Below are positions 3,831 through 28,735 of a DNA stretch of 64,000 nucleotides, piece after piece. The position numbers were made by a program, and so were the translations under genes. Origin of the DNA: Bryoerythrophyllum caledonicum. Lineage: Eukaryota > Streptophyta > Bryopsida > Pottiales > Pottiaceae. The DNA is taken from assembly GCA_963971425.1 (NCBI GenBank), contig OZ020515.1, forward strand, positions 6,836,291 to 6,900,290, in the 5' to 3' direction. Numbering within the stretch: position 1 is the first letter of the stretch; each line of letters opens with the position of its first letter. The notes below the pieces were generated by a model. The model made no database searches, was not told the DNA's origin, and saw only the letters and a list, made by a program, of their open reading frames with translations.

Positions 3831-4009
3831 ATGGACGATCCCGAGTGGAATTTCACGTGAGTACCATAAATCCATTGATTTTGTATGTATGTATGGCTTG
3901 TAGTCACACTATTCAATCAGCAAGATATTGTTCATATATAATATTAGAAACCGAATCGATGTTGTTTGCTTGATATATCGTACGGGAATCAGTTTGCTAT
4001 AGGATTTTT

Positions 4010-4560
4010 GCTAACGTCAGTCAAGTTTATGGGGTTTTAAGGTTAATATCACCCGATGTTCTGAAGTTCACATTACAATCTTGCTTGTATTGCAAGTTCA
4101 TATCGTAGCATCCTACAATATCTGCACTGGAGAGGTCAGTTAGATTTGTAGGTTGTTAAGGTTAGTATCGTCTGAAACTCGCAAGTTTATATTACAATCC
4201 ATCGCACTTTGCAAGTTCATATCGTAGGATCGTACGATATCAGCCAAATGGTCAGTCAGGTTTCTGGGTATTTGAGGTAAATATCATCAAAGTTGTATAT
4301 TACATATTACAAACATGCTCTCTTTGCAAGTTCATATCATAGGATCCTACGATATCAGCCGGAAAGGTCAGCTAGGTTTAGGGTATGTTAAGGTTACTGG
4401 GTCCGAAGTAGTTTAGTTCATTTTCCAATCATGCTCTGTTTGCAAGTTCATATTGTAGGATCCTACGATATCAGCCTAAAAGGTCAGTCTTCGCGTGTCA
4501 TCACTCACAATCTATTTGCAAGTTCATATCGTAGGATTCTACGTTAGCAGCCGGAAGACG
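4010..4560. repeat. ~117-bp tandem repeat in intron 1, one palindrome per unit
   Basis: GCAAGTTCATAT recurs at 4092, 4211, 4326, 4442 and about 4518 (spacings 119, 115, 116, 76). Each time it is followed at once by a copy of the ATCGTAGGATCCTACGAT palindrome. Most units also share GGTCAGT and a TTAAGGTTA-like stretch. Flanking sequence in the units has diverged more than the palindrome. Confidence 0.85.
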
Positions 4561-4836
4561 TTGTTATTTCTGGTATCATAAGATGATATGGTCGTTTGCT
4601 ATCGCAGGATCCTACGATGGTGTGGTTGGCCAAGCCATCGTTGGATCCTACGTTATGTCCCTGTGCAAACTGAATAATCCATCGTAGGATCCTACGATGA
4701 CACCTTCATCATGAATGATTTTTATAGGAGGGTGATCAGAAATGTGCAAGGTTGCATCGTGCCTTTTGATATTGTAGGATGCTAAGATCTCTAGTCCCGG
4801 ATCTCACTGCCCATTGCCATCGTAGGATCCTACGAT
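4102..4836. repeat. array of ten 18-bp palindromes (parS-sized)
   Basis: Copies of ATCGTAGGATCCTACGAT lie at 4102, 4221, 4336, 4452, 4528, 4601, 4637, 4681, 4771 and 4819 (18 bp each). Those at 4681 and 4819 are perfect; the others differ at one to four positions. The first five belong to the ~117-bp tandem units, while the last five sit in unrelated flanks, so the palindrome itself is the conserved unit. A role as a protein-binding site or an RNA hairpin is inference. Confidence 0.9.
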
Positions 4837-5465
4837 CTCTGGACCTGGATCTAAGTCATTAAACTGCGCACTGGTAAGGAGGCAATTTGTTGCAATACCT
4901 AATTCTTCGTCTTTCACTGTGTAGGGAAAATTTTAAGGAGGTGGATGAAGTCGATGAGGACTGGCGTCGAGTTAACGTGATCGACTACGTTTCGCTTGCA
5001 ATTTGTGAGGTGAATCGACCTCTCCATACACACACCCAAGTGTTGCAATACTACCTGGCGGAGAACTTCATTGAATGGGGTCTACAATGGACTATCGCGC
5101 CGTTGAAGGAAGCTCTGGTTGTGCCCATAATATGCCTCACGAATCCAGCAGCCATTGCAGGGGAGTTGTTCACGTGTTCAACAAAGAACCTGGAGGTTCT
5201 CGACATTGCGCTCGTTGGCGCGAACATGATGATCGTAGTGATCGAGGAGGACGTTCTTAGTGCTGGCTATAAGCGGGTGTATGCACTGATTGTGAAGACG
5301 GAGTCGTTAGCCCCGAGACTAAACGAATGTGTCAAAGACTACGGCATGACAGTTCTTTCGCAGAACATGAAGCCAAACATAATCATCCGCGGCTGGAAGG
5401 AGCTGAAGAGTCACCGGGACCGCTACAACAGAGACTTGGTGAAGCCTGTAGCGCCTTCTCCATAG

Positions 5466-6269
5466 ATGAAGAAGAAGAGGAGCAGTTCCGCGTTGGCGAA
5501 GACAGATACATGGAAGAATACGAAGAAGACTCGAGGTAACAAGGAGGACCAAATGACATTGGAGGAAGCCGTTGCATTAACGAGCAAGAAGGTGTACTCG
5601 GCGAGCCCGGAGTCTATCCTGAGAGTGAAGCAACTGTACGAGGCAAATTTTCGTGATGTGCACGTCTTCGGGACAAAGCCAACCAAGATTTCGGGATCGT
5701 CGAAGGAGGACCTTTTTGTCGACATCGACCGCCTCCATTGCGCACCGCCTGGGACTGTTGTTTATCGATCCCTCATAAAGGTTCGGGTCCTAGAGCTCCT
5801 TCAACAGCTGAGAACAAACCCCTTCCAGCTTGCGTTGCAGCATATCTATATCATGCCGGTGATGGGCCAATCCCGTGTGAGGGATGAAGATTACGAGGAC
5901 ATTCCACATAACATGTACAGGTATTTCGAGCACAAGCCGACCTGGGCTGACATCACGAATGACACGCACTATGTCATCATTAGAGGGCAGCATAGTGTTG
6001 TTGCGCATAGGATCCTGATCGGCGAAGGGGGATTGAGTGACGAGGCGAAAGAGGATGCGACAAAATTCCAAGTTACAATTCTCTGGGAGGATCCTCAGAA
6101 GAAGTGGGAGATGATGCAGCTGTACTCCAGAGTACTTAACCAAGACCTTGATGGTTCCAAGGCAGAGAGCAATTACATTCCGTGCTGTAAGATTGCTCGA
6201 AAAACTTGGGTTGAAATGAGATGTCCTGAGAAAGCAAGGAAAGGGCAGCCGGAACATGCAAACTTTGAT
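5466..6269 (+). pseudogene. ParB/sulfiredoxin-like domain protein, exon 2 continued
   Basis: This stretch is in frame with the upstream exon after TAG 5463. A Lys-rich start is followed by a segment laid out like a ParB N-terminal domain. A strand (DLFVDIDRLHCAPP) is followed by a helix (VRVLELLQQLR), a strand ending in IYIMPV, the signature YVIIRGQHSVVAHRIL (ParB box II form, GxxRxxA with His-Ser in place of the Arg pair), a strand (FQVTILWED) and a helix ending in an Asn-containing YSRVLNQD. In prokaryotes this fold binds or cuts nucleic acid, is a CTPase in chromosome segregation, and is often fused to DNA methyltransferases in mobile elements. The exon ends at a GTGAGT donor at 6270. The assignment rests on motif order only; an HHsearch against ParB/Srx profiles would decide it. 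Confidence 0.55.
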
Positions 6270-6308
6270 GTGAGTATTCTTTTCCTTCCGCATTCACCAT
6301 TATGCAGT

Positions 6309-6373
6309 ATTATAGGATCCTATGATAGTACTTAGTTTTTTTACTGTGTAACTGTCTCGTAGGATCCTACGAT
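6309..6373. repeat. two palindrome copies in the intron after the ParB-like exon
   Basis: The intron 6270-6404 (or 6413) contains ATTATAGGATCCTATGAT at 6309-6326, whose two changes nearest the core compensate each other and keep it symmetric, and a copy with one end mismatch at 6356-6373. Paired changes fit selection on symmetry or on a hairpin. Confidence 0.85.
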
Positions 6374-6404
6374 GAAGTTAACACTGTTGGTACTTTTTGT
6401 TCAG

Positions 6405-7160
6405 TTATTTCAGTCAAAACTCTCGACAATCATGCCCGGGAAGAAGGCGAAGGATGACGCGGCGACGTGTATTCCTAATTACCCTCTACTCTTCGTTCTA
6501 GAGGATATCTTCATCATGTAGGAGACGTCGAGACGATTGAGTAGCGATGGATGAGCGGATTCCTCCCTGATCCGTGGAATAGGACGTCAAGCTTGGTCGG
6601 CCTTGAAGACAAAGACATGGAGCAAGATAACGCCGGGACATTGCAACACGAACGAGTGAAGCAGCGTCAAATGACCTCCAAATCATTAATGCCGAATGAT
6701 TTACAGCCCTTGTACTATCTCTCGGAGAGTGACAACATGGTCATCGCAAGGAAAGTCATCGACAAGGAAATCTCCGTGAAATCGACGAAGGCGTCAAAGA
6801 TTCCTGCCACGGTGACTTCGCTTGAATCTGCTTGTAAGCAACAGAAGAGGAAGAAAATTCTAAAGAACGAATTCATGCATGTCATGTATAATGTGCCGCT
6901 GAGATCTAAGAAGCTAAAGGGACTCCCCTACACTGAGGCCGAGAGGGATGAAGGAGCAACAAAATACAAGATTACGGACGACGTTGTGGAGACTTGGTTT
7001 CACATGGTGAACAAGGATCCTGGCGGCGAGAAGTTCTTTCTATGTCGCGAGCAACTGAATGCATCTTCTAAGGACAAAGATCGGATCGAAATCCTAGACA
7101 CGCTATTCAAGCACCAGAAGACGGTCTCGGAGGATAGCGCGCAGGAATTGGAACTTGGCT
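6405..7160 (+). pseudogene. ParB-like gene, next exon, cut by the hAT insertion
   Basis: The exon starts at an acceptor at 6404 or 6413, both in frame. It reads through PGKKAKDD to a TAG at 6519-6521 and shifts frame before about 6551. It then runs open to 7160, where the hAT element begins. The 6551-7160 segment is Lys/Glu-rich with no domain I recognise; a basic patch (KQQKRKKILK) could bind nucleic acid or act as a nuclear signal. The exon resumes in frame at 21209 after the element: left GSGL... reads off the end of the host sequence, and after removal of one target copy the frame passes from ELELGS into SSATDFENQY. That match shows the gene was whole before insertion. Confidence 0.6.
7153..7160. 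repeat. left 8-bp target-site duplication of hAT element 1
   Basis: ACTTGGCT directly precedes the CAGGGTTG terminus and is repeated at 21209-21216 after the right terminus. Eight bases is the hAT superfamily length. Confidence 0.93.
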
Positions 7161-7330
7161 CAGGGTTGTCATAACAGACGAGTTGAGGTGATCGGACGGG
7201 ACAACCGGACGGGCGGCACGGACGGACGGTTCGGACGGATTGCCCGAAGAGTGCCCAATAATTTTTTGCAAGTAAGAATTTTTTACTGTGATCGCCATGT
7301 CACATACGGACGTGTCACGCCACCGTGGCA

Positions 7331-7440
7331 CTAGGGCGGGGACGTCTCCATGAGGGGCGGGGACGTCTACGCCCCAGGGGCGGAGACGCCTCTCCTGGGA
7401 CGGGGACATCCCCACCCCTCATGTAGGCGTTCACGCCCCT
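7331..7440. repeat. subterminal GC-rich GACGTC palindromes (hAT left end)
   Basis: Several copies of GGGGCGGNGACGTC(T/C)CC lie about 170 bp inside the left terminus. Similar clusters recur at 11511-11596, 13007-13114, 16785-16913, 19120-19148 and 20863-21014 in this element and near both ends of the second element. hAT transposases are known to bind short subterminal repeats, which is one possible role. Confidence 0.8.
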
Positions 7441-7656
7441 GCATCATTGAGCGGAGAGGCCTTAATGTCTGGAAGCAAAATATGTTTATTACATTAAAAA
7501 GTTTCACGATAAAATAAGAATTCCCTAATCTCATACTTCCAAACGAAGTAACATCTTGTAGTTATCTAAGAAACCTTTTTCTCTCCTAGCTTCTTCTATG
7601 AATTATCACAACTCTCTTGATTTCGCATACATATATGTAGTTACTTCTCTTGTCCT

Positions 7657-10600
7657 TTAATTATTCAAACGGCCCGATCTACGCACTCCTTCGGTGGACG
7701 GGCCACCCATAACCGCATCTCGAAGGATGATATCATCATCATCTGGTGCCTCATCGCAATCTTGACGGTTGTCATCATTAGCTCCTTCACCGCTCTCATC
7801 TCAGAATTCTCCATTGCTACCATCCGTAGTCCAAAAGCCCTCTATTTCAGAGTTGTCATTGCGAAGCTCTACGACTGTTTCACCATCGCAACGCGAGCGT
7901 CTGAATCTCTTTTGTCGATGTGCGTGACGATCATCGCCGTCGGAGTTTATGGTTGGGCCGTTGGTAGGACGAATCGCTCGATTCGGAACAACAAATGCCG
8001 GAGTTGTTGAAGAGCGTCCTGAAACATACATGTCCAAAAACGGTTGTACAACCACGTTCGGATCTCGTGCCCCTATTCCTAGGAGGAGACGTCTACGATG
8101 CCTTGAGGAGGATGCTTCGCCGTTGTTTCTTCCTTCACGGCCTCTAGCCGCTCCACGACCTCTAGACCCTCCACGAGCATTAGTCCTTGCACTCGGTTGT
8201 ATATATTGACCCATTGGATGAAGAAGCATCCTTGTAGCGGCCAAAGGAAGTCTGCCATTTCTGGTAGTAGTAGCGGAAGTGTTTAGACCCATCCCCTCAA
8301 CGCCTACACTTCGTTGAAAAGGTCCATCCATGGCATTCGCCGTTCTAGGAGAAGAGGAATTCCGGGAAGGCGGCGTTGGTACATTCTGGTCATTGATAAC
8401 CATAGGCAACACCACAACCGGAGATGGTTGTGGCTCAAGGTCCTCTGTGAATGCAAAAGCATCATCGGATCTACATATTCCGGGTCAAAACGCTTTTGCT
8501 GATTAACAACCCTTTCATTTCTTCGAGTTGTCCCTACAATTGTTGTCTTTACAACATTTGCGTTAGAGTCTCATTGAACGACTCCAGTGCTATGAAATGA
8601 TGCACCCATTCCAATAGGGCTCTCTTGGCCATACCGGTTTTCAACCGGTGCTTGGTTGTTTGGAGTCGCAGTATTTACTACGTTCTCTCCCGCTCCGTTG
8701 TTGTCGCCATTTCCATTTCCACCACCATAGTCTGATGGAGAATTGTCCTCTTTGCGAACATTCTCGACATTGCCCCCCCCCCGTTTCAGGCTCTTCAAGG
8801 TTAGTCACATTTGGGATGTCGCTCTCTGAGGAAGTAGACAAAGGTTGCACTTCATGAATGCCCTCATTTTGAGGAAGATGAGGCAAAGGACTGCGACGAG
8901 GACTTTGATTCCAAGGTCCCCAACGACTTTGATTCTAAGGTCTCCAACGACCTTGAGCCAATTCTTCTTCCACATCGTCATCATCTCCGTAATAGTTTCT
9001 CGTTTCCTCAAGATGATCGGCGCCTTCCGCCCAAAGATTAGGGTGTCCACGGTACTCCAGCGGAGTGCGAGGAGCTGCCATATTGTGCTCCTCCTCTTCC
9101 TCGGCTATCAACACATCAAATTCACAATTAGGTTCACCCACCGGGACCGGCCCCAGGGGATCTGTGTCGGAATCCTCCGAGTGAATATTCACATCGTACC
9201 ATCGAACGGGATCGGCCAGTGGTCTTTGTTGAAGGCATCGGCTATTGATATAAATATACACCTATGACGCAGCCTTTTCTGCCGCTCATCGATTTCGGCT
9301 CTTGTTGTGGACAAACGAGTACATACTCCAATTTCGTTCGCAAGAGCTAGCTGAACACGTAAGGGCTAGAATACAAACAGCTATTTTAGACAATGCCTTA
9401 TCTGCGATCCTCGCCCACCATTGGTGGAGTTGAAGCTTTGTCTGGCGGATGTCTGATGCCTCGGTAGGGCCATATGGTCATGTGCCCTCCTCGTACTGTG
9501 TTAACTCATATTGGACGTCCTCATATGAGACTTCCAATACCTCCATCATTTTGCGAACAACCCGATTCAATGCTCTTTGTGCGATTCCGTCAGCCCTAAA
9601 CGCCACATTATCCTTGAGGTACGGATTCAACAGAGCCCCGGCGTAGTGAACATCGGTGAAAACCATTTGCCACCAGGCATCAAAAGATTGTTCAAGAGTG
9701 GATGCTATGTCAGCTCGTAGAGTAAAGGGTGACTCTCTCAAAGAGTACACGTGTTCTTGCAAATTATGCATCACGAGCCACGCACAACCCATGGCTGGTT
9801 CGCGGCCATCAAACACTCGCAATGCCTTCAAAACATCCCCAGTCATGTGCACGTAATTCTGACATCGTTGCCAAAAGGCCACATCTTCGATGGTGAGCAC
9901 CACATTACGCGCTGCGGTTGCTGCTTGCTCTCCATTTTGTTTGTTCCGTAGGGTTGCAAAGTAGTTTACAACACGGGGGTGGTCTTTCAACTGCTCCAAC
10001 ACTCCTTTGAGTCTCACCAATCGATCCAACATAAGGAAGTTACAAGCAAAGCGGGTTTCAGTGGGCACTACAATATGCAGGTTTGGACTCAACTCACGAA
10101 GTGTCCCCATTGTCGAATGATGGTTTCTAATATATTTGCACAATTTCTTTGCCCTCTCTATTAAATCTTTAAATTCTTGGACCTTCGCCCAATCTTCCAA
10201 CATGAGATTCAATGCATGTGCCATGCACCCCTTCTTGTGAATGTGCGGGTATGTGAGAATAATATCATCCATCGCTCCAAGCATGTTGGGAGCATTGTCT
10301 GTACAAATCTGTGTCACATTCTTAGAACCCACCTTCTCAATGTAAACTTTCACTTGGTCCGCTATTTACCGCATGGACTTCTTCTCACCACTGGTGTCTA
10401 TGCTTCCCAAGAATACGTCACCAGTGGAGCACGACATCATTAAATTCATGAGGGGCCTCCGATGGACATCATCCCAACCATCCGTGCATATCGACACCCC
10501 ATAATTCTTGATTGCAAAATCAACTTTGGCTTCAATCTCTTTCTCAATTTGCAACCTCTTAGGTTCAATCAATCTAGTCCTCAACTGGTGATATGTAGGA

Positions 10601-11214
10601 GGAGTGTACTCAAACTTTGCCACAGATGTCGCCCTCACTGCATCGATGAATGCTTGATTTCGCGCCACATCAAAAGGCACATTCGCTTGATAGAAAAAAG
10701 TTGCCCACTTCTCATCAAGTTCTTTCCTCTTTGCAATGTTAAAAGCATCAAGCATCCGTTGTTGATGTAGTTGCCCAGATCTAGTGGAATTCGAGGCGGT
10801 AAGACCAACTGACACATGTTCGCGGTCGTTTCCTTCAGAGAGATTAGGCACTCCTTCCTGAGGCCCACTTGTTACCCCACCCGCCACATTATTTTGAGCG
10901 TCGGATTGGCTTGAAGTGTCAATAGTTGGTGCCCTCGATGGACCACTCGGGCCTGAATCTCCGCCATACATGTCCCCGCCCGTCATTCGTTGCGGAATAA
11001 TGTTTCCACAATTGGCAAATCGACTTCGCACATAGGGAGGTAGGCTACGACAAATCGACCTCTCTGACTTGGCGCCGTATCCAAAGTGAGCGAACGCACG
11101 CTCATGTTTGTAGCTAAAAGTATAGTTACAGAAAACACAACTCACTTTGCCTCCGTTGTCACCAAAATTGTACCAAGGTTCCCATTCTTTTGTTTGCTTC
11201 CTTTGACTTCCCAT
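7657..11214 (-). pseudogene. hAT transposase (BED finger, DUF659, hAT dimerisation), with several nonsense codons
   Basis: The start is ATG at 11214 (MGSQRKQTKEW). Residues ~23-45 form a BED-type finger (CVFC plus later His). A DUF659-like core follows (CTDGWDDV, CTDNAPNML, KKGCMAHALNLML). The C-terminal dimerisation region is SSCERNWSMYSFVHNKSRNR. The same frame runs from 11214 to about 8790 without an indel but with stops at 10363 (TAA), 9478 (TGA), 9286 (TGA), 9262 (TAG) and 8935 (TAG). A G10 run at 8777-8786 marks a frameshift, a further TGA lies at 8571, and another frameshift follows. The tail (8415 to 7657) is Arg/Gly-rich (GGSRGRGAARGRE), then acidic, and ends GRLNN. A TATAAAAG box lies at 11479-11472, about 260 bp upstream. 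The long acidic/RGG tail is unusual for hAT transposases. Confidence 0.85.
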
Positions 11215-11471
11215 TGCATTCACGGCTTATGCCAAATAATGTGCAAGTCCCGTCTAAGCCAAAATTCGGGGCTAGTTATAGTATAGAATCAGGTGAAAAT
11301 GTGAGGTCTGATAGTGCTGGTGCATTGCTTGAACCAATTTTTACATCACCTCAGCCGCACACCAGTGCCGCCTGCCACCCAAGTAGACTCGCAACGAGCT
11401 CAAACTAAATTGAGGTCCAAGAGATAGAGGCCAAGGTGACAAGCGTGAGGACAATCGGCCCTCCCCGAACC

Positions 11472-11596
11472 TTTTATACAGGAGCCAAGAACGGGTGGGA
11501 CCTGACGTGCCAAGGGCGGGGACGTCTCCGCCCCACCAGGGCAGGGCGGAGACGTCCCCGCCCTTACTTGGACATGGGCTGGGACGTCTCCCCAAC
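11472..11596 (-). promoter_or_regulatory. putative promoter of the hAT transposase
   Basis: On the minus strand a GC-rich GACGTC palindrome cluster (11596-11511) is followed by TATAAAAG (11479-11472) about 260 bp before the transposase ATG. The plus-strand kinase-like gene has the same order. Promoter function is inferred from position. Confidence 0.5.
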
Positions 11597-11599
11597 CCA

Positions 11600-12195
11600 A
11601 GAGAAGGAGGCCTTTTGGGCATTTTGGGTGCTTAGGCACTCTTCCTCTCCATGAAGAGGGTGGAGGTTTTAATATAGGGTACCTTATTTTTGGTTCCGAC
11701 AAGATTGCGACGCAGTTAAAATAAGAAGCAGGTTATGTCTACGAAGGAAGGCTTTCGGGAAAGTACTACTTTTGTCCTTTGACCGCATGCTCTCCAATAA
11801 TGAACACCTTTATTAGCTCCCTTTTAGATCAAGTAGTGAATAGCATGGGAGCTATGCAAGTCCCCATCCATAACGGGTAGTATAAGCCTCTAGTAGAATG
11901 TAATGTGCAAGTTCTCTAAATAAATAATTTAAACACAATTGCCCCACAAAAGATTAGGAATGTACCACATACCATTAAAGCAAAAAAATAAACCAAGTAG
12001 TGAATAGCATGGGAGCTATGCAAGTCCCCATCCATAACGGGTAGTATAAGCCTCTAGTAGAATGTAATGTGCAAGTTCGCTAAATAAATTGTACCATTAC
12101 AAACAAAAAGGATAGTTAAAATCATATAATGTTTAGAGCAAAAGTATTGTTCATAAAATTGATTTGCTACGTCCTAAACCTTTAAATACTCCTAG
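11600..12195. other. non-coding spacer of hAT 1 with a ~95-bp direct repeat
   Basis: A block from about 11829 to 11925 (AAGTAGTGAATAGCATGGG ... GTGCAAGTTC) recurs nearly unchanged at about 11993-12090, and a shorter decayed copy lies near 13842. GGTTCCGACAAGAT near 11691 recurs at 13250 and, in the second hAT element, near 34479 and inverted near 32057. No gene is seen. Confidence 0.6.
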
Positions 12196-12859
12196 TCAAT
12201 AGTAACGTTGGTGAAGGGCTCGTTCGGTCCTCCTCAACCTACCACGTGCTTGGGCCTTTTCGCTCGCGACTTGGACGTGGGTTCCGTCGGAGTCATCATC
12301 TGAACTTGACGTGTTAGTATCATAGCTAGGTGTGTCGTCCATCACAGTCATGAACTTGCCCAATCCACCTTCCGGATACTTGCGCCATCCCATTGGAATT
12401 ATTCCATTTTCAAGGCGAGGAATTTTTACCTTCCCGAATCCCCGGCATCGACTTCAAAGTGGACCAATCCACTATCTTGCCCAACTTCACCTCCGCATGA
12501 ACACCCTGCGCAATGAAGAGATTTACTTCGTTGCGTTTGACAAATGAGACGTCATACAACACTTGGTAAACTTCGATGCATCGGTTTTTAAACGCCTCAT
12601 CGATGCAATGTTTCAAGTTTGCCTTGTGGAAGCGCCGGTGATAGTTGTGTCGCGCCTCTGGGAAAGCCTTGTCGATGTGACACCACTCGATGTAGTTCGC
12701 GCAATCATCAAAACTCCATGGCTCCACTACGTCCTCCCAACCTCGAAAAGCCAACTTCTCGGGATTATGAAGAACGTGCAACCGCTTCCGATGGGCGTTC
12801 TCCGCTCTTGCACGGGTCTTGTCTCGCTCCTCCTTGGCCAATTGTCCGGATGAAGACAT
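12196..12859 (-). pseudogene. truncated paralogue of the N-terminal part of the RING cargo gene
   Basis: From ATG 12859 the protein (MSSSGQLAKEERDK ...) runs about 150 residues and then shifts frame near 12400. It continues as an acidic Ser/Asp-rich tail with a final Arg-rich segment ending LHQRYY. It is clearly related to residues 1-220 of the gene at 16594. Shared blocks are RKRLHVL, AFKGWE/AFRGWE, EPWSF, NRCIEVYQVL and KRNEVNLF. No known family is recognised. The region is rich in Trp, His and Arg and might bind nucleic acid. It lacks the coiled coil and RING that follow in the longer copy, so it looks like a partial duplication inside the transposon. Confidence 0.6.
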
Positions 12860-13006
12860 GGTGTGCACGTGTGAATGCAAAATTCTGGCGTGGATGGATG
12901 AATGAGACCTCGCACAACGCCTACATCCAGCTCAATGAAGAGATGGTGGATAGGAGTATGCGAGGCGGGGACAAATGAGGTCCCCCTCCATTCAAATAGT
13001 AATCTG

Positions 13007-13114
13007 GTAGGGGCGGAGACGTCCCCGCCATTGCCTCTGTAGGGGCGGAGACGTCCCCGACCCTGCCTCTGTAGGGGCGGAGACGTCTCCGCCCCACCAG
13101 GGCAGGGGCGGGGA
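13007..13114. repeat. GC-rich GACGTC palindrome cluster
   Basis: Four to five tandem-like copies of GGGGCGGAGACGTCCCC lie about 150 bp upstream of the minus-strand gene starting at 12859, matching the promoter-side position of the other clusters. Frames that read Ser-Pro-Pro repeats here are translations of this repeat. Confidence 0.85.
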
Positions 13115-13389
13115 CGTTTGCTTGTAAATGGGGGGGGTTCGTCCCCACAAAACTTTCCAAGGAGGTGTTGAGGCCACTCTTGCTTGGCCGAGGCACTCCT
13201 CATCTCCATGAGGCGGGTGCACAATTAAATATGGGGTGATTTATTTTTGGTTCCGACAAGATCCTAATGCACTTAAAATAACATGCAGATTATGTCTTTC
13301 CCTAGTTCTAGGGAGGAAGGCGAAATGGAAAGTACAACTTTTGTACTTTGACGGCATGCTCTCTAATAAGGAACACCTTTATTAGCTCC

Positions 13390-13950
13390 CTATTAGTTTT
13401 GGAGCAAACATAAGAGTGTAGAAAATTATTTCCTTCCAAATTTAAAAAAAAATCCTTGTCTTTAGTGGAAAATAACGCTTCAACTCAAGTCAAAGATTTT
13501 CACATATTGCCAAAAATATAATGGGCAAGGTACCAAAAACAAAAACGTCTCACCACATAAAACTTAGAGATTTTAACTTTTTATACTTTTGATTTTTTCC
13601 ACAACAATATGTGGTGTAGACCTTCATATTGACCATAAATATACATCAATCTAAAACATATCAAGTATCTAAAAACTAAAACGTTACTTGCCCATTTTTT
13701 AGCTTCCACTACTAGCATAGTTGACTTCAATAAGGTACACCCTTTTTCTACCTCTAACAATTGGTGTATAAGGAACTAACATCATCCTAAACTACCATTA
13801 GTAATGGATTTAGGCCTTATCTAGTGCAAAAATTTGATACCAAGTAGTGAATAGCATGAGAGCTATGCAAGCCTTTCAATCCGTGTGGTTAAAATTTATG
13901 AAATTTTGTGGGGACATTAACAAAGAAGTATTTATTGTGATCCTACGGTT
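13390..13950 (-). repeat. diverged inverted copy of the 27.7-kb / 45.6-kb dispersed repeat
   Basis: Read on the minus strand this block follows the order of 27750-28330. Shared pieces are GATCC(T)ACGG/CCGTAGGATC, the AAATTTCATAA block, the ACAAGG-TCTAAAT block, the TGTTAGTTCC block, TTTGACTTGAG and CACTAAAGACAAG. It lies between two cargo genes of hAT 1, so the smaller repeat was probably carried or inserted there. The rest of 13115-14308 shows no gene. Confidence 0.55.
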
Positions 13951-14308
13951 AGATGTAGAAATAAAAATGTTTTGTCTCCATTCTTAGGCATTATACTATA
14001 GCCGGGCAATTTTGAAGTGTTTTTGGTGCAAAAATGCCTTGGTCCTTTAGGGATTAAAAATGTTTGGAGGTTTAAAACTTGGTCCACACCATTTTTTTTT
14101 ATACAAACGCACAAATCCTTATGAGGCTTAAGTACATCCATAATCACACGGATTAACACCACTTTTATCAAGTAGAATGTAGACACTACTATTCATATTT
14201 TTTTTAGTATCCATAATGTAATACGAAAATGGGAAAATACATTAAACGCTAAAAGATGAAGCATTGTAAGAAAATTGTCTCTTGGCACCGCAAAAATAAA
14301 AAATACAC

Positions 14309-16594: not shown

Positions 16595-16784
16595 GGATGG
16601 GGAAAATTTGAATAATGTATGTGATGCGAATGGATGAAGTCCTCACACGACGCCCACAACCAACTCAATTAAGAGGTGGATGAAGAGGGAGTATGTGAGG
16701 CGAGGACAATTAGGGATGTGCACGATATTATATTGCCGATAGACGAAGCACTGGTCTAGGGTCCCCGGGCAAGGGCGGGGACGT

Positions 16785-16934
16785 CTCCGCGGCATGGGCG
16801 GGGACGTCTCCGCCCCCTACTGGGTAGAGGCGGAGACGTCCCCGCCCCTACTAGGGCAGGGGCGGAGACGTCCCCGCCCTGCCAAGTTAGGGCGGGGACG
16901 TCTTCGCCAAAAGAACCCTACTCCATATAAATAG
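16785..16934. promoter_or_regulatory. putative bidirectional promoter: GC palindromes plus TATA box
   Basis: Five GC-rich GACGTC palindromes (16785-16913) lie between the minus-strand RING gene (ATG 16594) and the plus-strand kinase-like gene (ATG 17123). TATAAATAG at 16926-16934 would serve the plus-strand gene, leaving a leader of about 160 bp. Function is inferred from arrangement. Confidence 0.55.
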
Positions 16935-17122
16935 GGGACATTTTGTCCTTATTCTCTCCCAAGTCCACTCCCTAGGCCTCACGTGTCAGTTCGCTTTGCG
17001 GCTTGAAAGTGAGTTTGGTGGGTGATCGGGTTTGGCCCATTTATTGTACCCAGACTCTTTGCGGTTTTTTTCAAAACCATCAACTTGGAATTTCGACCAC
17101 GGTAGGGAGTTGACAATCACAT

Positions 17123-18710
17123 ATGGCGGGAGAAGGAAGTAGGTCGATGGAGAAGCGCCCAGTATTTAAGGACTTGAATGATGTTGATGAGACGGTTCTT
17201 CCGTCCACCAACACGGAGTTGACTTCGGGATCATTGAATCCGTCGTCATCGAGCGGGAAGAGGCGGAAGAAGTCACCAAATCCGGACATGCCCCCGCACG
17301 AATACATGGTTGAATGTAGAGGGATTGCCGTCGAGTTTTACAACCGCCGGACGAGAGGGGCGTTGACGAGGAGCTATCTGAACCACAACGAAGAGGGATA
17401 CCACAAGTTGACGGTTGACATGCGACACGAATTAATGTCAAACCTTGATAAATCTGAGAAATTTAATAATTTCTCAGATTATTGGTTGCATTCGGAGTGG
17501 TTGGATACACAAGTGATCGCACTGACCACCAATATCATTGCGAACTGGTGTTACGTCACGGGGAAGAAGGAGGATGAGAGCACCTAGAACCTGGAGGAGT
17601 GCGCACTAGTGGCGAAGTTGAGGATGATCCAGGGCTTCGTTCAACAATACTCTTCTTCCCGTAAGAAGAAACCAGCTCCTTGGAAAGCGACTATTGAGGA
17701 GCAAATTTAGGCTCACTACGTTGGTAGAACTTTCAAGTGGCTTGAAAGTTGAGCTAAACTGATTCCAATGCCAGGGTAGAGCGCGGTGGGTGGCTATGGG
17801 GCTGTACGGAAGGTGATGATAACCAAATTAGAAAACATTCCAAGTTGGATTTACTTCGCCGGAAAGACTCTGACCAACACCAACGAGAGGGAGAAGCACC
17901 GAAACATCATCAACGAGGGTGGAGGGTGGAGGGTGTCTGGTAGTGCATCCAGGGATCATTAGACTTGCGTACATCCACCCAAAAACTATGGAAGGGTATA
18001 CGCTCTGGTGGAATGGGGGATCTCTCCAGAGTTTTTGGTCCAACTTTGACTTGAAAGTGGACGAAGCATTGCCGTTTGAACGGATTGAGATGCATCCGAA
18101 TATCGGGTTGTCGATCCAAGAGCTTCGGTGGGTTAAAACTTACCGCCAAAATCGAATGAACCTTGCGCTATCGTTGCTTGCCATTGTGGGGAAATGCCAC
18201 GACGCGAATTATATACACAATGACATCTCTTCATCGAATGTTTTGCTCCACTTTGATGAGTGGAAACCGGATACGCTGTACATCGGAATTTGCGATTGGG
18301 GGCTTTCTAGTTGGGTTGTGGAGAATGAGCCATCAAGGTATGGTTATCAATTCAAGGAGGAGCTTCAACAAAAGAGAGAGCGGCGACGGTTTGTGGCACC
18401 AGAACTGTTCTATGTTTTTGGGCCGCGGAACTCCACCAACTCGCTTGAAGTCAGGCAACGGTCACACTTCTACTCCAAGGCAGCAGATGCATTTACGGTG
18501 GATTGGATTTGTGAATTTTTTTGGAAAGAAGATTGAGACACTTCGTATTTCACCAGCAAAAACACGGAGCAATATGTAAACCTAAAGCTAAAATTTACAG
18601 CGTTGCAAAAACAACTGCTCGAAGAAGGGTCTTCTGTGCCAGATGTTTTAGACACATTAATGAAACCCCCCCACAACTGGACTATGCCTCTATGTTGTTA
18701 CCGACAATAG
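17123..18710 (+). pseudogene. protein-kinase-like cargo gene of hAT 1
   Basis: ATG 17123 follows a TATA box. The first ~155 residues are unrelated to kinases. The kinase-like part begins near 17780 with a glycine-rich loop (GGYGAVRKV), a Lys strand (FAGKTL), HPGIIRL, a catalytic-loop form HNDISSSNVLL (Asp kept, HRD Arg replaced), CDWG in place of DFG, and APELF. A C-terminal segment reaches TAG 18708. Stops lie at 17585 (TAG), 17708 (TAG), 17750 (TGA), 17777 (TAG) and 18534 (TGA). One frameshift near 17915 falls in a repeated GGAGGGT run, probably slippage. The altered HRD and DFG suggest a divergent or inactive kinase even before decay. Its presence in a DNA transposon is unusual. Confidence 0.7.
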
Positions 18711-20862
18711 TTTTTTGTTGATTAGCTGCATTAGTTTCGCATGTGGTGGTTAAATAGGCAATACGGCATCTTCGTAGAAGAATATGTGTACTTGGCAATT
18801 GCCATACGTTATATTTTAATCAATATTGGATACGTCCAAATCTCAAATTTTCAATCCGAGATTTGCATTTGTTCAAGCACAAATAATTATTGATACACTA
18901 TTGATACACTAAATGTGCACAAGTGAAAGAAATAAATTTATTATTTTTACAAAAATTGATACATAGTGTAGTAAATGGCAATTAGTGTCGGATTATGTCA
19001 CTACACTAGGTGCCTCATTTGCAATTGGTGTATGGGTTCACATTTAGTGTATACTACAGGAAACATAAATTTTAGTTTACCAACATAGTGTGAATAGTTA
19101 AGCACTATTAACTAACTCATGAAGGGGCGGAGAGGTCCCCGCCCCTTTATGGGCAGGTGTAGAGCCAAAATGACAAAAATAGATTTTTTCCGAAAATTAA
19201 GTGTAAAAAGGGTTGTAGATATATGAAGAATTAAAAAAATAATGATTAAGTCTACACTAAGTAGTTAATTAAGTGGAAAATACCTATTCATATCCAAGAA
19301 ATAGGAAATAATGGGAAAAGGGTTGAACTCACACCCTTTGGGTAGGGTGTACCTTTTCATGAATGGATATGAAGAGATGTGAAGATTTAGTGGAATTAAT
19401 CTTAATGGTTAATAATAGGGAAAATCTCTTGCCAAGAGGTATACCTCTTGGATGTTGAGTAGAATAACTAGCTTGAATTTTTAGCATTCTTGGCCATTAC
19501 CTCGAGTGAAGACGGAGTGAGCCCTAGCTTGTGAATGGAAGCTAGTTTGAGAGATCTTATGGTTGTAAGACTCTTTTTTATTAACCAAGTATTGTTAATT
19601 ACTTGTGTTGTGTTGAATGGTGATTGTAATTATGTGTGATTGCATTATAATAAGTCTTGATAGTGAGTCAAGTACTATGCATAAATGCAATACATTTGAA
19701 CTTCATATAATAGATTAGAGCAATACTCTAATCATTGTTAATTGATTATGTGACATATTGTACTTTATAATTAAATCATAATTAAATATGTGGAATTAAT
19801 GTATCATTGAATTGTTCAATGTGATTGAATGAACCATGCATAAATACCTTTAAGTTGATGTGATAGTAATTAGAGGTATGCATGGAAATGATGGAGAGTC
19901 ATCATGAGAATTAGAATGTTATTTAACCATTGGACGGGAAATCTTAAGTTGGAGTCTTAAGACAGGAAGTGCTGATTCAGTCTAGAATGCACGTATTAGA
20001 TAAATCTTTATAAAAGCGTGAGTTTAGCATGTATTGCTACAGTCTTAAGGAATTGGACATTTTAAGTGATGTAGATCTTAAGTCTTTAAGCATTCCTTAA
20101 GCGGACGCAGATACAATCAGTATTCTTAAGACAAAGTGTGAATCTTCAAGAGAGGATTTCTTAAGGAATTGATACCTTTAAGGAGCGTCCTTAAGTATTT
20201 AGAGTCTATAGAGATAGGACAATCCAATGGTAGTCAGTTTTCTTACAGCTGAGTGTTAAATCTTAAAGAAGACGAGCATGAGTGTAAATGTCGTCTTAAG
20301 ACCTTAAGAAATAAGAGGTAGTTCTTAAGAATAGAGCGCGGGAAGTGCCTGTCTTAAGATTACTTGTAACTTATGTGTGTTTTGTGAAACTAACACTTGT
20401 TTTAAGAACGTATCCGCACGGGCCGAGTGGACGGACGTGTAAAGAGGAGCGTTTACAACTTTATTGCATGAGGTAATAATTGGTTTATAAAAGAACTTAA
20501 TTAAGGAACCAATGCATTGAGTTTAATGGAATCTTCCATTAGCCCAGCGTGGCATAGGTCTAGGAGTTGGGACACAAGCACAATTTTAAAAGGACTAATG
20601 TACCTTCATTAGGCACGAGAGATCCTTGGGTTTTAACTTTATATATATGTACCCCATAAGAGTGATGCTAACAACCCTGCTCCCCTTAAAAATGACACTT
20701 AAACCTTAAATATTCAATTAAAAGACAATTTAACCAAACATTTAGAATCATATTACTTAAAACTAGGCGTATGATCATCCCCTAGAGCGAATCCTAATGA
20801 CATTTGTGTATAAGTGTGTAAGCTTGGGTGTTTTCTTGAAGTGGTAAATTTCCGTGTAACAG
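18711..20862. other. non-coding right part of hAT 1
   Basis: No gene is seen. The stretch is AT-rich, with one GC palindrome pair at 19120-19148 and a dense group of CTTAAG sites at 19943-20358. Simple inverted AT-rich words are common around 19700-19900. The stretch may contain an older solo LTR or another inserted element, but I found no clear ends. Confidence 0.4.
19943..20358. repeat. cluster of twelve CTTAAG hexamers
   Basis: CTTAAG occurs at 19943, 19956, 20044, 20077, 20096, 20125, 20160, 20190, 20295, 20303, 20324 and 20353, with more TTAAG half-words between. About 0.1 would be expected by chance in 416 bp. Flanking bases are not conserved, so this is not a simple tandem repeat. Confidence 0.85.
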
Positions 20863-21014
20863 CAGGGGCGGGGACGTCCCCGCCCCATATAGGCAGGGGC
20901 GGGGACGTCTCCGCCCCTGCCTGTGTGGGGGTGGAGACGTCCCCGCCCCATACGGGAGAGGGGCGGAGACGTCTCCGCCCCTACTCAAGTTGGGCGGGGA
21001 CGTCTCAGTCCCAC
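20863..21014. repeat. subterminal GC-rich GACGTC palindromes (hAT right end)
   Basis: Five to six copies of GGGGCGGGGACGTC(C/T)CC lie about 200 bp inside the right terminus, mirroring the cluster at 7331-7440. The outer 190 bp (21019-21208) match, inverted, the left end of the second hAT element. Confidence 0.85.
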
Positions 21015-21208
21015 CTCCCTCTTGCCATTAGTCCCCGATTCTACTCAAACTTGACCCTCTCCTACGTGGCAGCTATGTGGTGCCAACATGGCTGCCACGT
21101 CGCCTGTTTTTTACCTAGCGGATAAGTCAACCCTCAGTTGACTGTATCGGATGGGCGAAAGCTCTACCGGACGGGCGTACCGGACGTCCGTCTAGTATGA
21201 CAACCCTG

Positions 21209-21905
21209 ACTTGGCTCATCTTCCGCGACGGACTTCGAGAATCAGTACAAGGTGTTGTACATGAACAAAAGGAAGGACAACACGAAGAAGACTATTGATC
21301 TGGAAGGCGACACTATGAACTCTTGGATGAAGGCCGACTCACAGGTGGTTATTGTCTACTGCTTTGTCAATCGGAAGGACAAAGGTATCGCACACTACTC
21401 CAGTGCAGAGCAATTGAATGAAACGATGCAGGCTATGGAATGTAGAGATAGTAGCCACTTCAGACGGGCCCAATACTTGGGAGTGTTCATTACCAACTGG
21501 GAGGGCATGGTGGACGTTGCGAATATCGTATTCGAGAGAGGGTCTGTGATTAAGCAGCAGCGACCTTGGCACGTCCTTCCGACGTTATATATGACGTTGG
21601 GCATCGAGTGCTTCACGCAACAGCCATCTCCGGAGGCTACATGTCCATTGTATTTCAAACTCTTGTTCGGGAACAAAGCGAAACATGATTTAAAAGCCTG
21701 CTTCACCAACGCCTTCCGCATTGATATGCCGTTTACTAGTGTGGTTAATGCAGCAGACTTTTCTAATGCTTCCCGTCAGTGGGACCAACCCACTTATGCG
21801 AATTTCAATCTTGATGCGGTCTCTTCGATTTTGGGTACATTGGAAGCCTCCAAATACGTACTGATCAACGTCGGCGGCGGTTCAAGCATCACCTAGATTG
21901 GTCTG
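21209..21905 (+). pseudogene. ParB-like gene, exon resumed after the hAT insertion
   Basis: After the target duplication (21209-21216) the reading frame resumes as SSATDFENQYKVLYMNKRKD and runs to TAG 21894, then IGL and a GTAAGT donor at 21906. The protein is globular, Trp- and Phe-containing, and ends KYVLINVGGGSSIT-stop-IGL. Joined to the next exon (TKGAQVLEVVHSKSEVKKAL) this has the spacing of methyltransferase motif I and the following acidic strand (GxGSxxxxxxxxxGxxxxxxE). A ParB domain followed by an N6-adenine methyltransferase is a known prokaryotic mobile-element fusion. The catalytic DPPY is not seen, so this is a suggestion only. Confidence 0.5.
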
Positions 21906-21999
21906 GTAAGTCTATCATAGGATCCTACGATCATTGAACTTCATGTCTTTGCAGTGCACTGCCTCATTCGTACCTTGTACTTAAAGAATGTCTTTGTAG

Positions 22000-22726
22000 A
22001 CGAAAGGAGCACAAGTCTTGGAAGTTGTTCACTCCAAGAGCGAGGTGAAGAAAGCACTAGAGACTTCCAGCAAGATCTACGACACTAGTCGAATGCTAGC
22101 TCTGGCACTACCCGGGCAAGAACCTTCGACATCCCGGAAGAAGTAGCAGAAGGGGAAGGATAGGCAACCGGATTCGTCGAGCGATGACACGACGGAGGAT
22201 GAAGTTGTGGAGCTGGACAGCTCTGACTCGGATGGTGACGATGACGATGACGAGGACAATGGCAATGGCGACGAGAAGGAAGGGGATGGTGATTGGGGAG
22301 GTCATCAGGGGAGAGAAGACGTTGCGGCGGAGGACGAGGACTCGAATTCTAGTAGAGATGCTCCTCCTCCTCAGGAAACGCCTTCTGAGGAAGATGTTCC
22401 TCCTCCTAGGGCAACAAGAAGTACTGCGAGGCCTAAGAAACGGGTCAAACGGTCGAAAGCGAGCGCCATGCCTCTGACTGGGTCAATAAGCGGGAAAGCG
22501 TCCAAGCAATCAGGCAAGAAAGCTCAGACCGAAAAGGGGATGAAGGAGTCCGCGGCCAAGCAAGTGTCTAAGGTAGCTCGGCCTCCTAAGCGGAAGCCGG
22601 AGTCCGTCCCCAAGCAAGCAATCAAGGAAGATTAGGTTGGTAAGCAGGAGGCCACTGCTAAGCAAGCAGTCAAGGATGCCCACACGAGTAAGCGTAAGAA
22701 GGATTTGTTCGGCCCAAGCCAAGTAT
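22000..22726 (+). pseudogene. ParB-like gene, 3' exon with acidic then basic tail
   Basis: The exon starts after TTTGTAG at 21999, in phase 0. It completes the motif-I-like segment, then has TAG at 22144. A strongly acidic Asp/Glu tract follows (around 22205-22330), then Pro/Ser-rich and finally Lys/Ala-rich repeats of the form AKQxxK up to TGA 22724, with a further TAG at 22633. The charge-segregated tail is like chromatin or histone-binding tails, which is inference. The 22727-23038 stretch after it holds the palindrome at 22935 and an acceptor before 23039. Confidence 0.5.
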
Positions 22727-23038
22727 GACCTAGAGGCTTTCTCCGAACTCTGTTAGCAGGCACATTTTTGGATTGGCCGTTTTTGAACTTTTGTTACCAG
22801 ATAGATTTGTAAATAATTATACCATGGGCTTGTGACCTGTTATTCAATGCATAATATTCTTTTCTAGTATTCTTCATTTTCCACAATGAGTGTTATAGAA
22901 TTTCACAACATTGTAATCGGACTTTCCTCTAGGTATCGTAGGATCCTACGAGGGTCTTCGGATTGTAAGAATCTGCGAACTCTTCCATTCTCAAGTTTGA
23001 TGTTTAATATCCTCTGTATTCCATTCTTTTGTGGACGC

Positions 23039-23731
23039 AGTTGACAATGGACTACCCGGATCTACCCTTGGACGTGCAGCCTGCGAGAGACACATGCGTT
23101 GTGTTACCTCCTATAGATTCAACAGTGAATGAACCCTATGTTGTCGAGGATCAAGGTGTCCTTGACATTTCTGCTAAGGTTGTAAATCAGGGAAATGTGG
23201 AGAGTTCGCGCAGGGAGGAGGTCTCTCAGAGTAGAACACACGGTACTGATGACGGAGATGTGACTCCTCTTCAACGTCAGGCTCAGATAATAGATCAGGA
23301 AGAAGGTCTCATGGACGGGCGAGGGATTCCAGAGGAGATTCGTGCTGAGTCTCTCCCTAGTTCTGGGAAGCAAACCATGTCAGCTGTTGAGTCCCGCTCT
23401 TCTTTGGGGCATTCGACGACGGTGGATGACTCTGCGGCTTGGGCATCGGACAGCGGCGCCGTTATATCCGATGCGGATGTATTAGCTAGCTTAGCTGCGG
23501 TTGTCTCCACAATGGAGACCGTCGATATTATTGCTTCGACGATTGCACGAGAGGTTCTTGTTGGCTTGTTGGAAGAGGCGAGTTAGGAAATACTGCCATT
23601 GAGCCCTGTGAAGCAGACTTCGACATTGACTATAGAGGAGAAGTTTGGCGACGTCCCTCAGACTTCCGTCCAAGACCAAGAGGCTTGGAGCTCCTCTAAA
23701 GCTAATTTCCGTCGCGACCAAGGACCACAAG
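23039..23731 (+). pseudogene. Ser/Asp-rich segment upstream of the FCP1-like module
   Basis: The exon follows GTGGACGCAG at 23038; the first ATG is 23047 (MDYPDLPLDVQPARD). About 180 residues of polar, low-complexity sequence reach TAG 23584 and continue in frame as EILPLSPVKQTS until about 23731, where a GTATAC donor is possible. No domain is recognised. It may be the disordered N-terminus of the following phosphatase-like module or the tail of the ParB-like gene. Confidence 0.4.
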
Positions 23732-23920
23732 GTATACCTCTTCCCTCCGCTAATTCATGTAAAACTCAGGTCTTGATCGTAGGGTCCTACGATATTTGGA
23801 TCCTCATCATAGGGTCCTATGATCCTCCCGTCCTCAAGTATCATTTATCCCAGCAGCGTCCTTGTTCCTAACCACTATGTCTTCTGTAAACGTACTCTGT
23901 ATTCCAGTGTCTTACGTGCA

Positions 23921-24612
23921 GAGGAACTGTTGCAGGAAACGTAGGTGCGGACATTGTAAAGACATCGCCCCTAATCAAAAAGGTGAGATTGCCTCGATAT
24001 ACCGACATCTTGGACTTTAACGGATTTCTGGTTCACAGGAAGGATAATAATAGATAGAGTATCCCTAGACCCGATAGTGCACAGTTTCTGAACACCCTGA
24101 ATGATCTGGCTACTATTGTGGTATGGAGCTGCGCCGTCGAGAGAAACGTGCGTAAGATGCTGGAGAAAGTCCTCGGTTCTGATATCATGGAGGGCATAGT
24201 AATCATGACACAAAATCATACAACAAGATCCTCTTTTCCGAGAGAGGAGAATAGAGATAAGCCCTACCAGCTTAAGGACATTTAGAAAATCCCTACAATA
24301 GTTGATCACGCAGACCTGGACATGACATTACTCATCGACGACAGCGCTGAGAAGAACCTTTTGAACGATGAGTTCAGTGCGGTTCACCCTGAACCTTGGA
24401 CATGTGACGTGAACCACAAGTTCCTCATTGACATCATGCTTCCGTGGTTAGGAAGGATGTTTAATTCCGGCCTTTCCGTGATTCAATATGTTCGTAATAA
24501 TTCCCTTCCCAGATGTCCGTCTTCTACCATCTTTAGGACTTCAAAATTAGCACAAAATATAGTATTTGGGTGTTCACGGTCATGGGACTCGAGAAAGAAG
24601 ACATTTGTTTGA
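23921..24612 (+). pseudogene. FCP1-like (HAD, NLI-interacting-factor) phosphatase domain, module A
   Basis: The exon begins after CTTACGTGCAG and reads in one frame to TGA 24610 with TAG at 24055 and 24283. FCP1-type motifs appear in order: the nucleophile strand TDILDFNGFLV (DxN form of the DxD motif), RP near 24065, a helix and strand ending VVWSCAVERN (motif II, WSS-like), KPYQLKDI, and MTLLIDDSAEKN (motif III, DDS). Plant FCP1-homology proteins of this kind (DLNG start) are related to CTD phosphatases. A poly(A)-signal-like AATAAATA lies near 24690. The lower-case order of motifs is convincing, while activity is doubtful given the stops. Confidence 0.6.
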
Positions 24613-24830
24613 CCACTCATTCCTGTGGATGGTGTTTGAAGTTTGAGTTTCTGTTGGACTCAACAATTTGTAAGAAACCTTTTTGTATGTAAATAAATAT
24701 TTTTTCACTATCATCTACTCAATGTCAATTTCCATTCTCTTGTGCATCGTAGGATCCTGCGGTTATCCAACTCGTTGTAGCAGTTGGTTTTGATATTGCT
24801 TACAAATGTTTTCATTCTGTATGCGCACAG

Positions 24831-25475
24831 CGTCCCCCCGAGACCTCAAGGAAAGTAATCGTTTTGTCAGTGAACGGATTGCTTTGCTTCGAACAATACA
24901 AGAATGCCACCCCACGACGTTTCAAGCGTGAGAACGTTATCGTGCGGCCTGGTCTCCTTGAGTTCTTCACAATACTTCTTAGGTACTTCGAAGTTGGTAT
25001 ATGGTCATCTATGAATTTACCCCGCTTGAAGAAGGTTCTCAATTTTCTTCTACCAGAGGGCATCAGGTCACGACTTTTTTTTTTGTGTGGACGAAAGTAC
25101 TGTTCTAAGCCCGAGATGTATCCATACTGCGACAAGAATATATTCAGATTATCAGCTGACCAGAAGACGAAGCACATTTGCCTCCCTGGTCAAGTAATGA
25201 TGGTTGATGACCAACCAATGCGGCATGTCTTCAGCGGAAACTTTTTTTGTTACTTTCCGATGCCTTGGCTAGGAGAAATGACTATACCCAACGCGGTCGG
25301 TGTTATACCAAACATTACGACAACACTGATTCCATTTATCCTCCTGCTGAGATCTTACGCATCGGTGAATCAGTATCTCATGGGGTACCCAATGGACGGA
25401 AAGTTCCCTTGTAGATTGTTAGAAGGTTGGCACTATGACCGTGTTCTATACGGTCATGCTTATGAGAATCCATAA
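24831..25475 (+). pseudogene. FCP1-like domain, module B, catalytic Asp lost
   Basis: The exon begins after ATGCGCACAG and runs open for 215 codons to TAA 25473. Motifs are KVIVLSVNGLLC (Asp-to-Ser change at the nucleophile position of DLNG), VIVRPGLLEF, FEVGIWSSMN, KPEMYPYCDKN, VMMVDDQP and FFCYFPMPW. It parallels module A domain by domain, so the two look like a tandem duplication. Because the nucleophile is missing while the frame is intact, this copy could be a pseudo-phosphatase rather than plain debris. The short frame 25435-25620 overlaps it and is not separately supported. Confidence 0.6.
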
Positions 25476-25620
25476 CATTGTGATTGATTTTGAAGCCAGT
25501 GGTATGTTCCCAATTTATTATGTGAATAAAAATGGTGACTTACATGTTTATGCCTTCCATGTCCCTGACTATCTCGACGGTTATTACTACTTATATTCAG
25601 ACCATCATGTTCTTTTGTAG

Positions 25621-26335
25621 ATTGGCAGCCTAAACAATCGTAGGATCCTACGGTCGTAAGCCTCTATCAATGTCTCAAATCTTCTCAGCACATATTCGTA
25701 TATGTTTACTAATCCAAGTGCTTTCATGATTTGTATCGTAGGATCTTACTGTGTATGCCACGTATTCTGGTTTGCCACATCATACAACGTCGTTTGATGC
25801 TATTTTAAACATTGTGATACAATTTCATATAGTATGAAGAGCAATTCATAGCAAAAGAAAAAATTTGTAGTCCTATTTCTTTGTTTATAGTTTAACATCG
25901 TACTATCCTACGATCTGCAGTCCATATTGATTTTTGACCCTAAGTCCGGATATCCTCAAATAGTCCAAATTTAGTTAAATGTGGCATACAAGATATTTTT
26001 AGGAATTACTAAACTTGAAAGGGGGTACAATGTGACTCTAAAATTTCTTCTAAACCTAAGTTTAGAATTATCCCAAACAAGAATTAAATGATAAAAGAAA
26101 TAGGCCCACCTATAGAATCTTGTTTGCTTCCTCCTCCACCAACCAACCAAAGTGTTAAAAACTGTCTTTTCAAATTTTCATTAAACTCCCCATTTTTAGT
26201 GAATTTCCGTGGATAAGACAAAATATCAATTAGAAATAGCAAATTGCCATTGAACCCTAGGATACACTAGTAATGTCAATCATTACACCATATTGATGCA
26301 TGAAATTCTCCTCATTTATCTACACTTAAAATAAA
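25621..26335. other. no gene seen; three palindromes
   Basis: This AT-rich stretch contains the last palindrome copies (25637, 25735, 25897) and nothing else I can interpret. It marks the downstream edge of the ParB/FCP1 region. Confidence 0.5.
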
Positions 26336-26558
26336 CTACACTAAAGATCACATTTAGTGTAATGCTCAGTAAATGACTTGTAAATGTGATAAGTTTTTAC
26401 TTTAAGTGAATATTTTTACCAACTATGTTTATAATGATCCTCTTATTTGAATACTATAGAGAATTGTGCTCTTGGTAAAAATTGGCATCAAGAGTAAAAA
26501 CTTATCGCATTTACAAGTCATTTACTGAGCATTACACTAAATGTGATCTTTAGTGTAG
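26336..26558. mobile_element. fold-back MITE (Tc1/mariner-like, TA target), copy 1
   Basis: The 223-bp block is a near-complete inverted repeat whose arms begin TACACTAAAGATCACATTTA and whose ends lie on TA dinucleotides. The loop holds GATCCTCTTATTTGAATACT. A second copy in the opposite orientation lies at 28762-28982. There is no coding sequence, and a Stowaway-type origin is inferred from the TA target. Confidence 0.8.
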
Positions 26559-28591: not shown

Positions 28592-28606
28592 TTAACAACG
28601 CCCAGG

Positions 28607-28735
28607 CATGGACATTTAACTTCCAGGCATAGACATTTAACTTCCAGGCATGGACATTTAACTTCCAGGCATGGACTTTCAACTTCCAGGCATAGACTTT
28701 TAACTTCTAGGCATGGACTTTATTAACCCCCAGGC
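28607..28735. repeat. 22-bp minisatellite, six to seven units
   Basis: Units of the form CCAGGCATGGACATTTAACTT repeat with small changes. A frame on the minus strand reading HAWKLNV repeats is this satellite in translation. The last unit and its flank (28694-28762) recur at 29359-29428, bracketing the MITE and the block between. Confidence 0.85.

Follow-up and report, generated by a model that had tools for sequence, protein, structure and literature searches.

We analysed a 64,000-nucleotide stretch of contig OZ020515.1 of Bryoerythrophyllum caledonicum (hereafter the window), in which two neighbouring genes, here called gene 1 and gene 2, share their introns and spacers with an array of 18-bp palindromes. 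In our hand-drawn model gene 1 comprises four coding exons (3831-22729), is interrupted by a 14,048-bp hAT element, and has recognizable donor and acceptor signals at all three introns. The present copy is a pseudogene, with in-frame stops and with shifts of the reading frame that we placed by eye at about 5460, 5535 and 6545. The intron of gene 2, bounded by GTATAC (donor) and TTGCAG (acceptor), leads into the first of two FCP1/SCP-type (NIF, PF03031) domains, which we designate NIF-A and NIF-B; the exon encoding NIF-B is preceded by a CACAG acceptor, for which a matching donor was not found. Values below are expectation values (E) and bit scores.

3831-3856, plus strand, gene 1 first coding exon (hand-drawn; GTGAGT donor)
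4925-6269, plus strand, gene 1 exon 2 (by eye, the frame shifts at about 5460 and 5535; the proposed ParB-like segment occupies the 3' part, 5544-6269)
6405-7160, plus strand, gene 1 exon 3, left part (hand-drawn)
21217-21905, plus strand, gene 1 exon 3, right part (begins after the second copy of the hAT target duplication)
22000-22729, plus strand, gene 1 exon 4 (acidic at first and lysine-rich in its tail; two in-frame stops precede the end)
23047-23731, plus strand, gene 2 first exon (one in-frame stop; 23041-23586 without a Pfam match)
23936-24513, plus strand, NIF-A domain (PF03031, E 3.3e-10, 40.3 bits against a cut-off of 21.8; LDFNG motif; two in-frame stops)
24831-25475, plus strand, NIF-B exon (PF03031, E 4.3e-7, 30.2 bits against a cut-off of 21.8; LSVNG at the place of the catalytic DxDxT)

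The palindrome has the mirror-symmetric consensus ATCGTAGGATCCTACGAT, with the core GGATCC and GATC in its centre. Counting as a site any 18-mer with at most three mismatches to this consensus, we found 20 sites in the window where 0.01 would be expected from 100 shuffles; two are exact, nine carry one mismatch, five carry two, and four carry three. The initial annotation had placed about 20 copies at 4102-4836, 6309-6373 and 21914-25914, and the scan confirms this distribution as 10, 2 and 8 sites, respectively. Its claim that no copy lies elsewhere in the 64 kb or within the 14-kb hAT likewise stands, since relaxing the threshold to five mismatches added no site anywhere; in this sense, confinement within the window to the stretch of genes 1 and 2, we call the palindrome private. 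The sites located by the mismatch scan are:

4102, 4221, 4336, 4452, 4528, 4601, 4637, 4681, 4771 and 4819 (18 bp each; span 4102-4836), ten palindromes in intron 1 of gene 1
6309-6326 and 6356-6373, two palindromes in the 135-bp intron
21914-21931, one palindrome in the 94-bp intron, beginning 8 bp from the 5' end of that intron
22935-22952, one palindrome in the spacer that separates gene 1 from gene 2 (provisionally 22730-23038)
23776 and 23806 (span 23776-23823), two palindromes in the intron of gene 2
24746-24763, one palindrome on the 5' side of the NIF-B exon, separated from the splice acceptor of that exon by 67 bp
25637, 25735 and 25897 (span 25637-25914), three palindromes downstream of NIF-B

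Summed over the 20 copies there are 31 base changes, 10 of which are C-to-T or G-to-A transitions in the two CpGs, the pattern expected from methylation decay, and columns 2, 10 and 13 of the alignment are invariant. The exact 18-mer was absent from the genome contigs searched and occurred once in viral contigs (L001), within a 470-amino-acid frame, a copy that we take as chance. In the literature searched, which was available to us in part, the 18-mer itself appeared in no paper, and shorter strings turned up in a few papers that appear unrelated from their titles.

The palindromes also avoid coding sequence, as had been claimed. The hand-drawn exons account for 5,496 bases of the gene stretch against 2,532 non-coding bases, and all 20 sites fall in the latter. 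Setting aside intron 1, where half of the copies lie, the remaining sites are still 10 of 10 non-coding (binomial probability 1.8e-7). The companion claim, that every intron or spacer holds a site, is true of all six non-coding segments that follow intron 1, but with a chance probability of 0.135 this is unsurprising by itself. Not all copies are independent: four of those in intron 1 belong to a 116-bp tandem array (4065-4488), a fifth shares the repeat unit of that array, and the copies at 4771 and 4819 agree at 19 of their 30 flanking positions, which leaves about 15 independent sites. Fifteen copies lie outside the repeat unit, and for 13 of them the closest agreement with any other copy is at most 16 of the 30 flanking bases; as flanks are mostly unshared there, it is the 18 bp itself, and not a larger repeat, that is kept. 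Rfam gave no match in the window at its gathering scores.

The two NIF domains, absent from the initial annotation, were the sole domains above their curated cut-offs in the scanned exons (scanned in pieces, with most of exon 4 left out). NIF phosphatases carry the catalytic motif DxDx(T/V); in NIF-B both aspartates are replaced, while NIF-A retains the first only. A first search for NIF-B returned 13 relatives and a profile search 23, of which 18 span the four motif positions (P0005, P0006 and P0007 start inside the motif, P0012 and P0019 end short of it). In all 18 there is aspartate at neither catalytic position, the motif place reading SVNG in 15 and FGNG, SLNG or LVNG in the others. A catalytically dead NIF domain seems to have been conserved. 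A structure model of NIF-B built from 18 sequences (predicted local distance difference test score, pLDDT, of 59.5) resembles CTDNEP1, TIM50 and SCP1 at a template-modelling (TM) score of about 0.5. Several relatives are 88-94% identical among themselves, some have shortened frames, and they are recorded on contigs of differing length, which looks like a repeated, decaying family. No relatives were found in viral contigs, or in the PDB by sequence using either NIF-B alone or the profile, and in the portions of the literature open to our search we found no report of NIF domains together with transposable elements and palindromes.

In some of these relatives the open frame seems to read through from intron sequence into the NIF-B exon; where the window has CAG followed by CGT, P0001, P0002 and P0003 have Q followed by R. 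We calculated, at each position of the 23 proteins and in each frame, the fewest base changes with which any choice of codons could spell the palindrome. Among the 12,401 position-frames scored, the four with the lowest values, namely P0002 (0 changes), P0013 (0), P0020 (1) and P0001 (2), all lie just before the NIF-B exon. Shuffling of the residues of this stretch, applied to three of the four, equalled these values in 0 of 2000 trials for P0002, 0 of 2000 for P0020 and 7 of 2000 for P0001. As P0002, P0013 and P0020 are 88.7-91.4% identical, the four proteins represent two lineages. The peptide lies 15 residues from the exon in P0001, P0002 and P0020, and the palindrome lies 67 bp from it in the window. 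Some NIF-B relatives therefore seem, judging from what their proteins would permit, to keep the palindrome at the same exon.

The hAT element that splits exon 3 has a private palindrome of its own, which it shares with a second copy of the element:

7161-21208, minus strand, hAT inside gene 1 exon 3 (14,048 bp; 8-bp target duplication ACTTGGCT; terminal inverted repeat CAGGGTTGTCATA; DUF659 frame)
31396-35415, second hAT copy with the same terminal inverted repeat (duplication CCTTCACG)

The 22-bp palindrome GGGGCGGAGACGTCTCCGCCCC has 19 sites in the window at up to three mismatches, 14 in the larger element and 5 in the smaller, and none elsewhere. These sites span 7354-20981 and 31623-35236, in blocks both near the element ends and inside, and by analogy with known hAT subterminal repeats we presume them to be transposase sites. 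Since the two copies hold all 19, palindromes private to an element do occur in this genome. The 14-kb hAT may also carry captured genes: two related open reading frames (12410-12880 and 15905-16594, minus strand) share 300 nt at 80% identity and have no assigned function, and kinase-like (17919-18536) and RING-like (14768-15355) frames were read by eye.

Three other features lie further along the window. An element at 26334-28982 has 223-nt terminal inverted repeats (91% identical), each arm of which is itself an inverted repeat of 86-89 nt. At 39453-42841, a Tc1/mariner-type transposase open reading frame (40219-41226) has on either side a block of about two 370-bp repeats. One exon of a host NOG1 gene was recognized at 48475-49230 on the minus strand (PF06858), with no palindrome nearby.

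The initial annotation had also proposed that gene 1 encodes a segment laid out like the N-terminal domain of ParB, with the motif GQHSVVAHRIL; we find this segment as an open frame at 5466-6335. The likeness of this motif to a ParB/Srx box is an interpretation made by eye, and the proposed domain was not borne out by our searches. The segment had no match to PF02195, the ParB N-terminal domain, up to E 10; in control searches KorB of R751 matched this model at 1e-12, but ParB of N15 missed as well, so that a diverged ParB would still be compatible with the negative result. The helix-turn-helix models of ParB, KorB and SopB in Pfam, of which KorB and N15 ParB each match one, were absent from the scanned exons, most of exon 4 having been left out. 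No relative of the exon at 5466-6335 was found at E 0.001 among 5.8 billion proteins, none in viral contigs, and none beyond E 0.63 in the PDB by sequence. In a test with a KorB profile (31 rows from 52 loci, the 21 unused being mostly near-identical), the segment was unreported by hmmsearch, and 87 of 100 shuffles scored at or above it by hhalign; as N15 ParB failed as positive control here too, this test has no power. A single-sequence structure model of the segment (pLDDT 36.1, predicted TM score 0.26) was uninformative. No ParA-type NTPase turned up among the exons scanned, which do not cover every frame, and nothing fitting on ParB domains in eukaryotic elements was found in the literature searched, as far as its text was accessible.

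The only hint of a DNA-binding fold in the scanned exons is a homeodomain-like match in exon 3 (residues 129-151 of the frame 6551-7174; E 0.004, 17 bits against a cut-off of 22.9). A class-beta N6/N4 DNA methyltransferase, suggested by a by-eye likeness in the right half of exon 3 and in exon 4, was rejected: hmmscan reported no such family; of 29 viral YhdJ-like frames drawn from 50 loci, 20 went into a profile that gave 0.0 bits, a score that 133 of 500 shuffles (489 reported) equalled or bettered, while three held-out true members scored 122-152; and the hhalign score was 12.1 against a best of 21.7 among 60 shuffles.

We tentatively favour, at somewhat below an even chance, an explanation in which the palindromes are binding sites of a symmetric-dimer DNA-binding protein in a repeated, possibly mobile, gene cassette, and serve to recognize the cassette's own DNA. 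The cassette would comprise gene 1 and the two NIF-domain regions, with the palindromes kept in its introns and spacers and each symmetric 18-bp site serving as the docking site of a dimeric protein. We consider docking the best explanation because a symmetric site stays in non-coding DNA across the cassette and is apparently kept in diverged relatives, whose DNA would then really hold the palindrome. The binding protein would itself be encoded by the cassette, gene 1 being a candidate through its ParB-like or homeodomain-like stretch; the cassette would be mobile, and binding would serve self-recognition in mobilization, copy control or silencing. That the cassette's own protein might dock for such purposes we infer from the parallel with the hAT copies and from the repeat-family look of NIF-B.

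Several observations weigh against this explanation. We found no terminal inverted repeats of the cassette, a comparison of 2951-4100 with 25451-29000 giving no inverted match longer than 16 bp, though the true ends may lie outside these intervals, and no transposase domain was detected in the scanned exons (scanned in pieces, without most of exon 4). The homeodomain-like match in exon 3 is under its cut-off, and the ParB models in Pfam, NCBIfam and PHROGs all miss the ParB-like segment. The near-identical NIF-B relatives may be copies from one genome or may come from different assemblies. Compatibility with the palindrome was read from the protein sequences of the relatives, and the peptide RRILR had been spotted by eye before testing. 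Finally, the upstream stretches of P0003, P0010, P0014, P0021 and P0023, five of the eight proteins shuffled, hold no convincing site (best 4-7 mismatches), the nearest being P0010 with 4 changes, a value reached by 60 of 2000 shuffles.

A host transcription or chromatin factor could instead bind the palindromes and control the gene family, with no self-recognition by a cassette product. The copies in intron 1 and between the genes do resemble intronic regulatory sites, and the scanned exons encode no DNA-binding domain above cut-off; against such a factor, the rest of the 64 kb, including the surroundings of host NOG1, holds no palindrome, in a small sample of one host gene whose introns are unmapped, and we regard this account as unlikely but worth serious consideration. 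Quite unlikely, in our view, is an origin as tiny selfish inserts, or as products of a palindrome-making repair process, that survived only outside exons. The unrelated flanks, the copy-free exons and the close spacing of many copies would all suit such an origin, but no target duplications are apparent by eye in the flanks, all other non-coding DNA of the window is free of copies, and the palindrome is apparently retained before the same exon in diverged NIF-B relatives. The last two observations, absence from the rest of the window and apparent linkage to NIF-B in relatives, also make it improbable that the palindrome is a repeat found generally in introns or intergenic DNA of the source genome and clustered here by chance.

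The palindromes might otherwise function at the RNA level, each folding into a hairpin with a 7-bp stem and a GAUC loop that takes part in splicing or RNA processing. Most sites are indeed intronic, and those at 6309 and 23806 have a compensated pair (G-C to A-U). However, paired cells amount to 90.5% against 89.6% in shuffles, a level reached in 110 of 500; changes on both sides (62 of 500 shuffles) and the covariation score (68 of 500) are not clearly above shuffles either. Together with the CpG-decay type of 10 of the 31 changes and the position of three sites downstream of the NIF-B stop, this leaves a role in RNA very unlikely.

Arrays of binding sites private to an element are a known kind of arrangement; as far as our searches reached, we found no earlier description of one dispersed among introns and spacers in a NIF-bearing cassette that has no recognized transposase. 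Like ParB-parS systems (ParB/RepB/Spo0J, KorB), the locus has clustered palindromic sites close to a gene, 20 in all and comparable in length to parS, and a motif in gene 1, GQHSVVAHRIL, that resembles the ParB/Srx box by eye; unlike them, it has no ParB_N, HTH_ParB or KorB domain detected by profile, and its sites lie in introns of a eukaryotic gene. The two hAT copies offer the parallel of a many-copy palindrome private to an element within the window, but they have terminal inverted repeats, 8-bp duplications and, in the larger one, a DUF659 frame, whereas the cassette shows none of these. With FCP1/SCP/TIM50-type proteins (PF03031) the cassette shares two NIF domains and, for NIF-B, a similar modelled fold; in contrast to NIF phosphatases, NIF-B and all 18 relatives covering the motif lack the catalytic aspartates, and NIF-A retains only the first.

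In its most specific form, a mobile eukaryotic cassette would encode its own dimeric binder, ParB/Srx-like or homeodomain-like, with the palindrome as address label, alongside catalytically dead FCP1-type domains, and would constitute an undescribed self-recognition, partition or silencing system; we consider this unlikely. Were the palindrome such an address label, it would offer a direct way to study how an element of eukaryotes that lacks a recognized transposase identifies its own DNA, and would provide a defined motif with which to pull out the binding protein. The adjacent conserved and apparently dead NIF domain would then raise the question of whether the cassette acts on RNA polymerase II or on chromatin.

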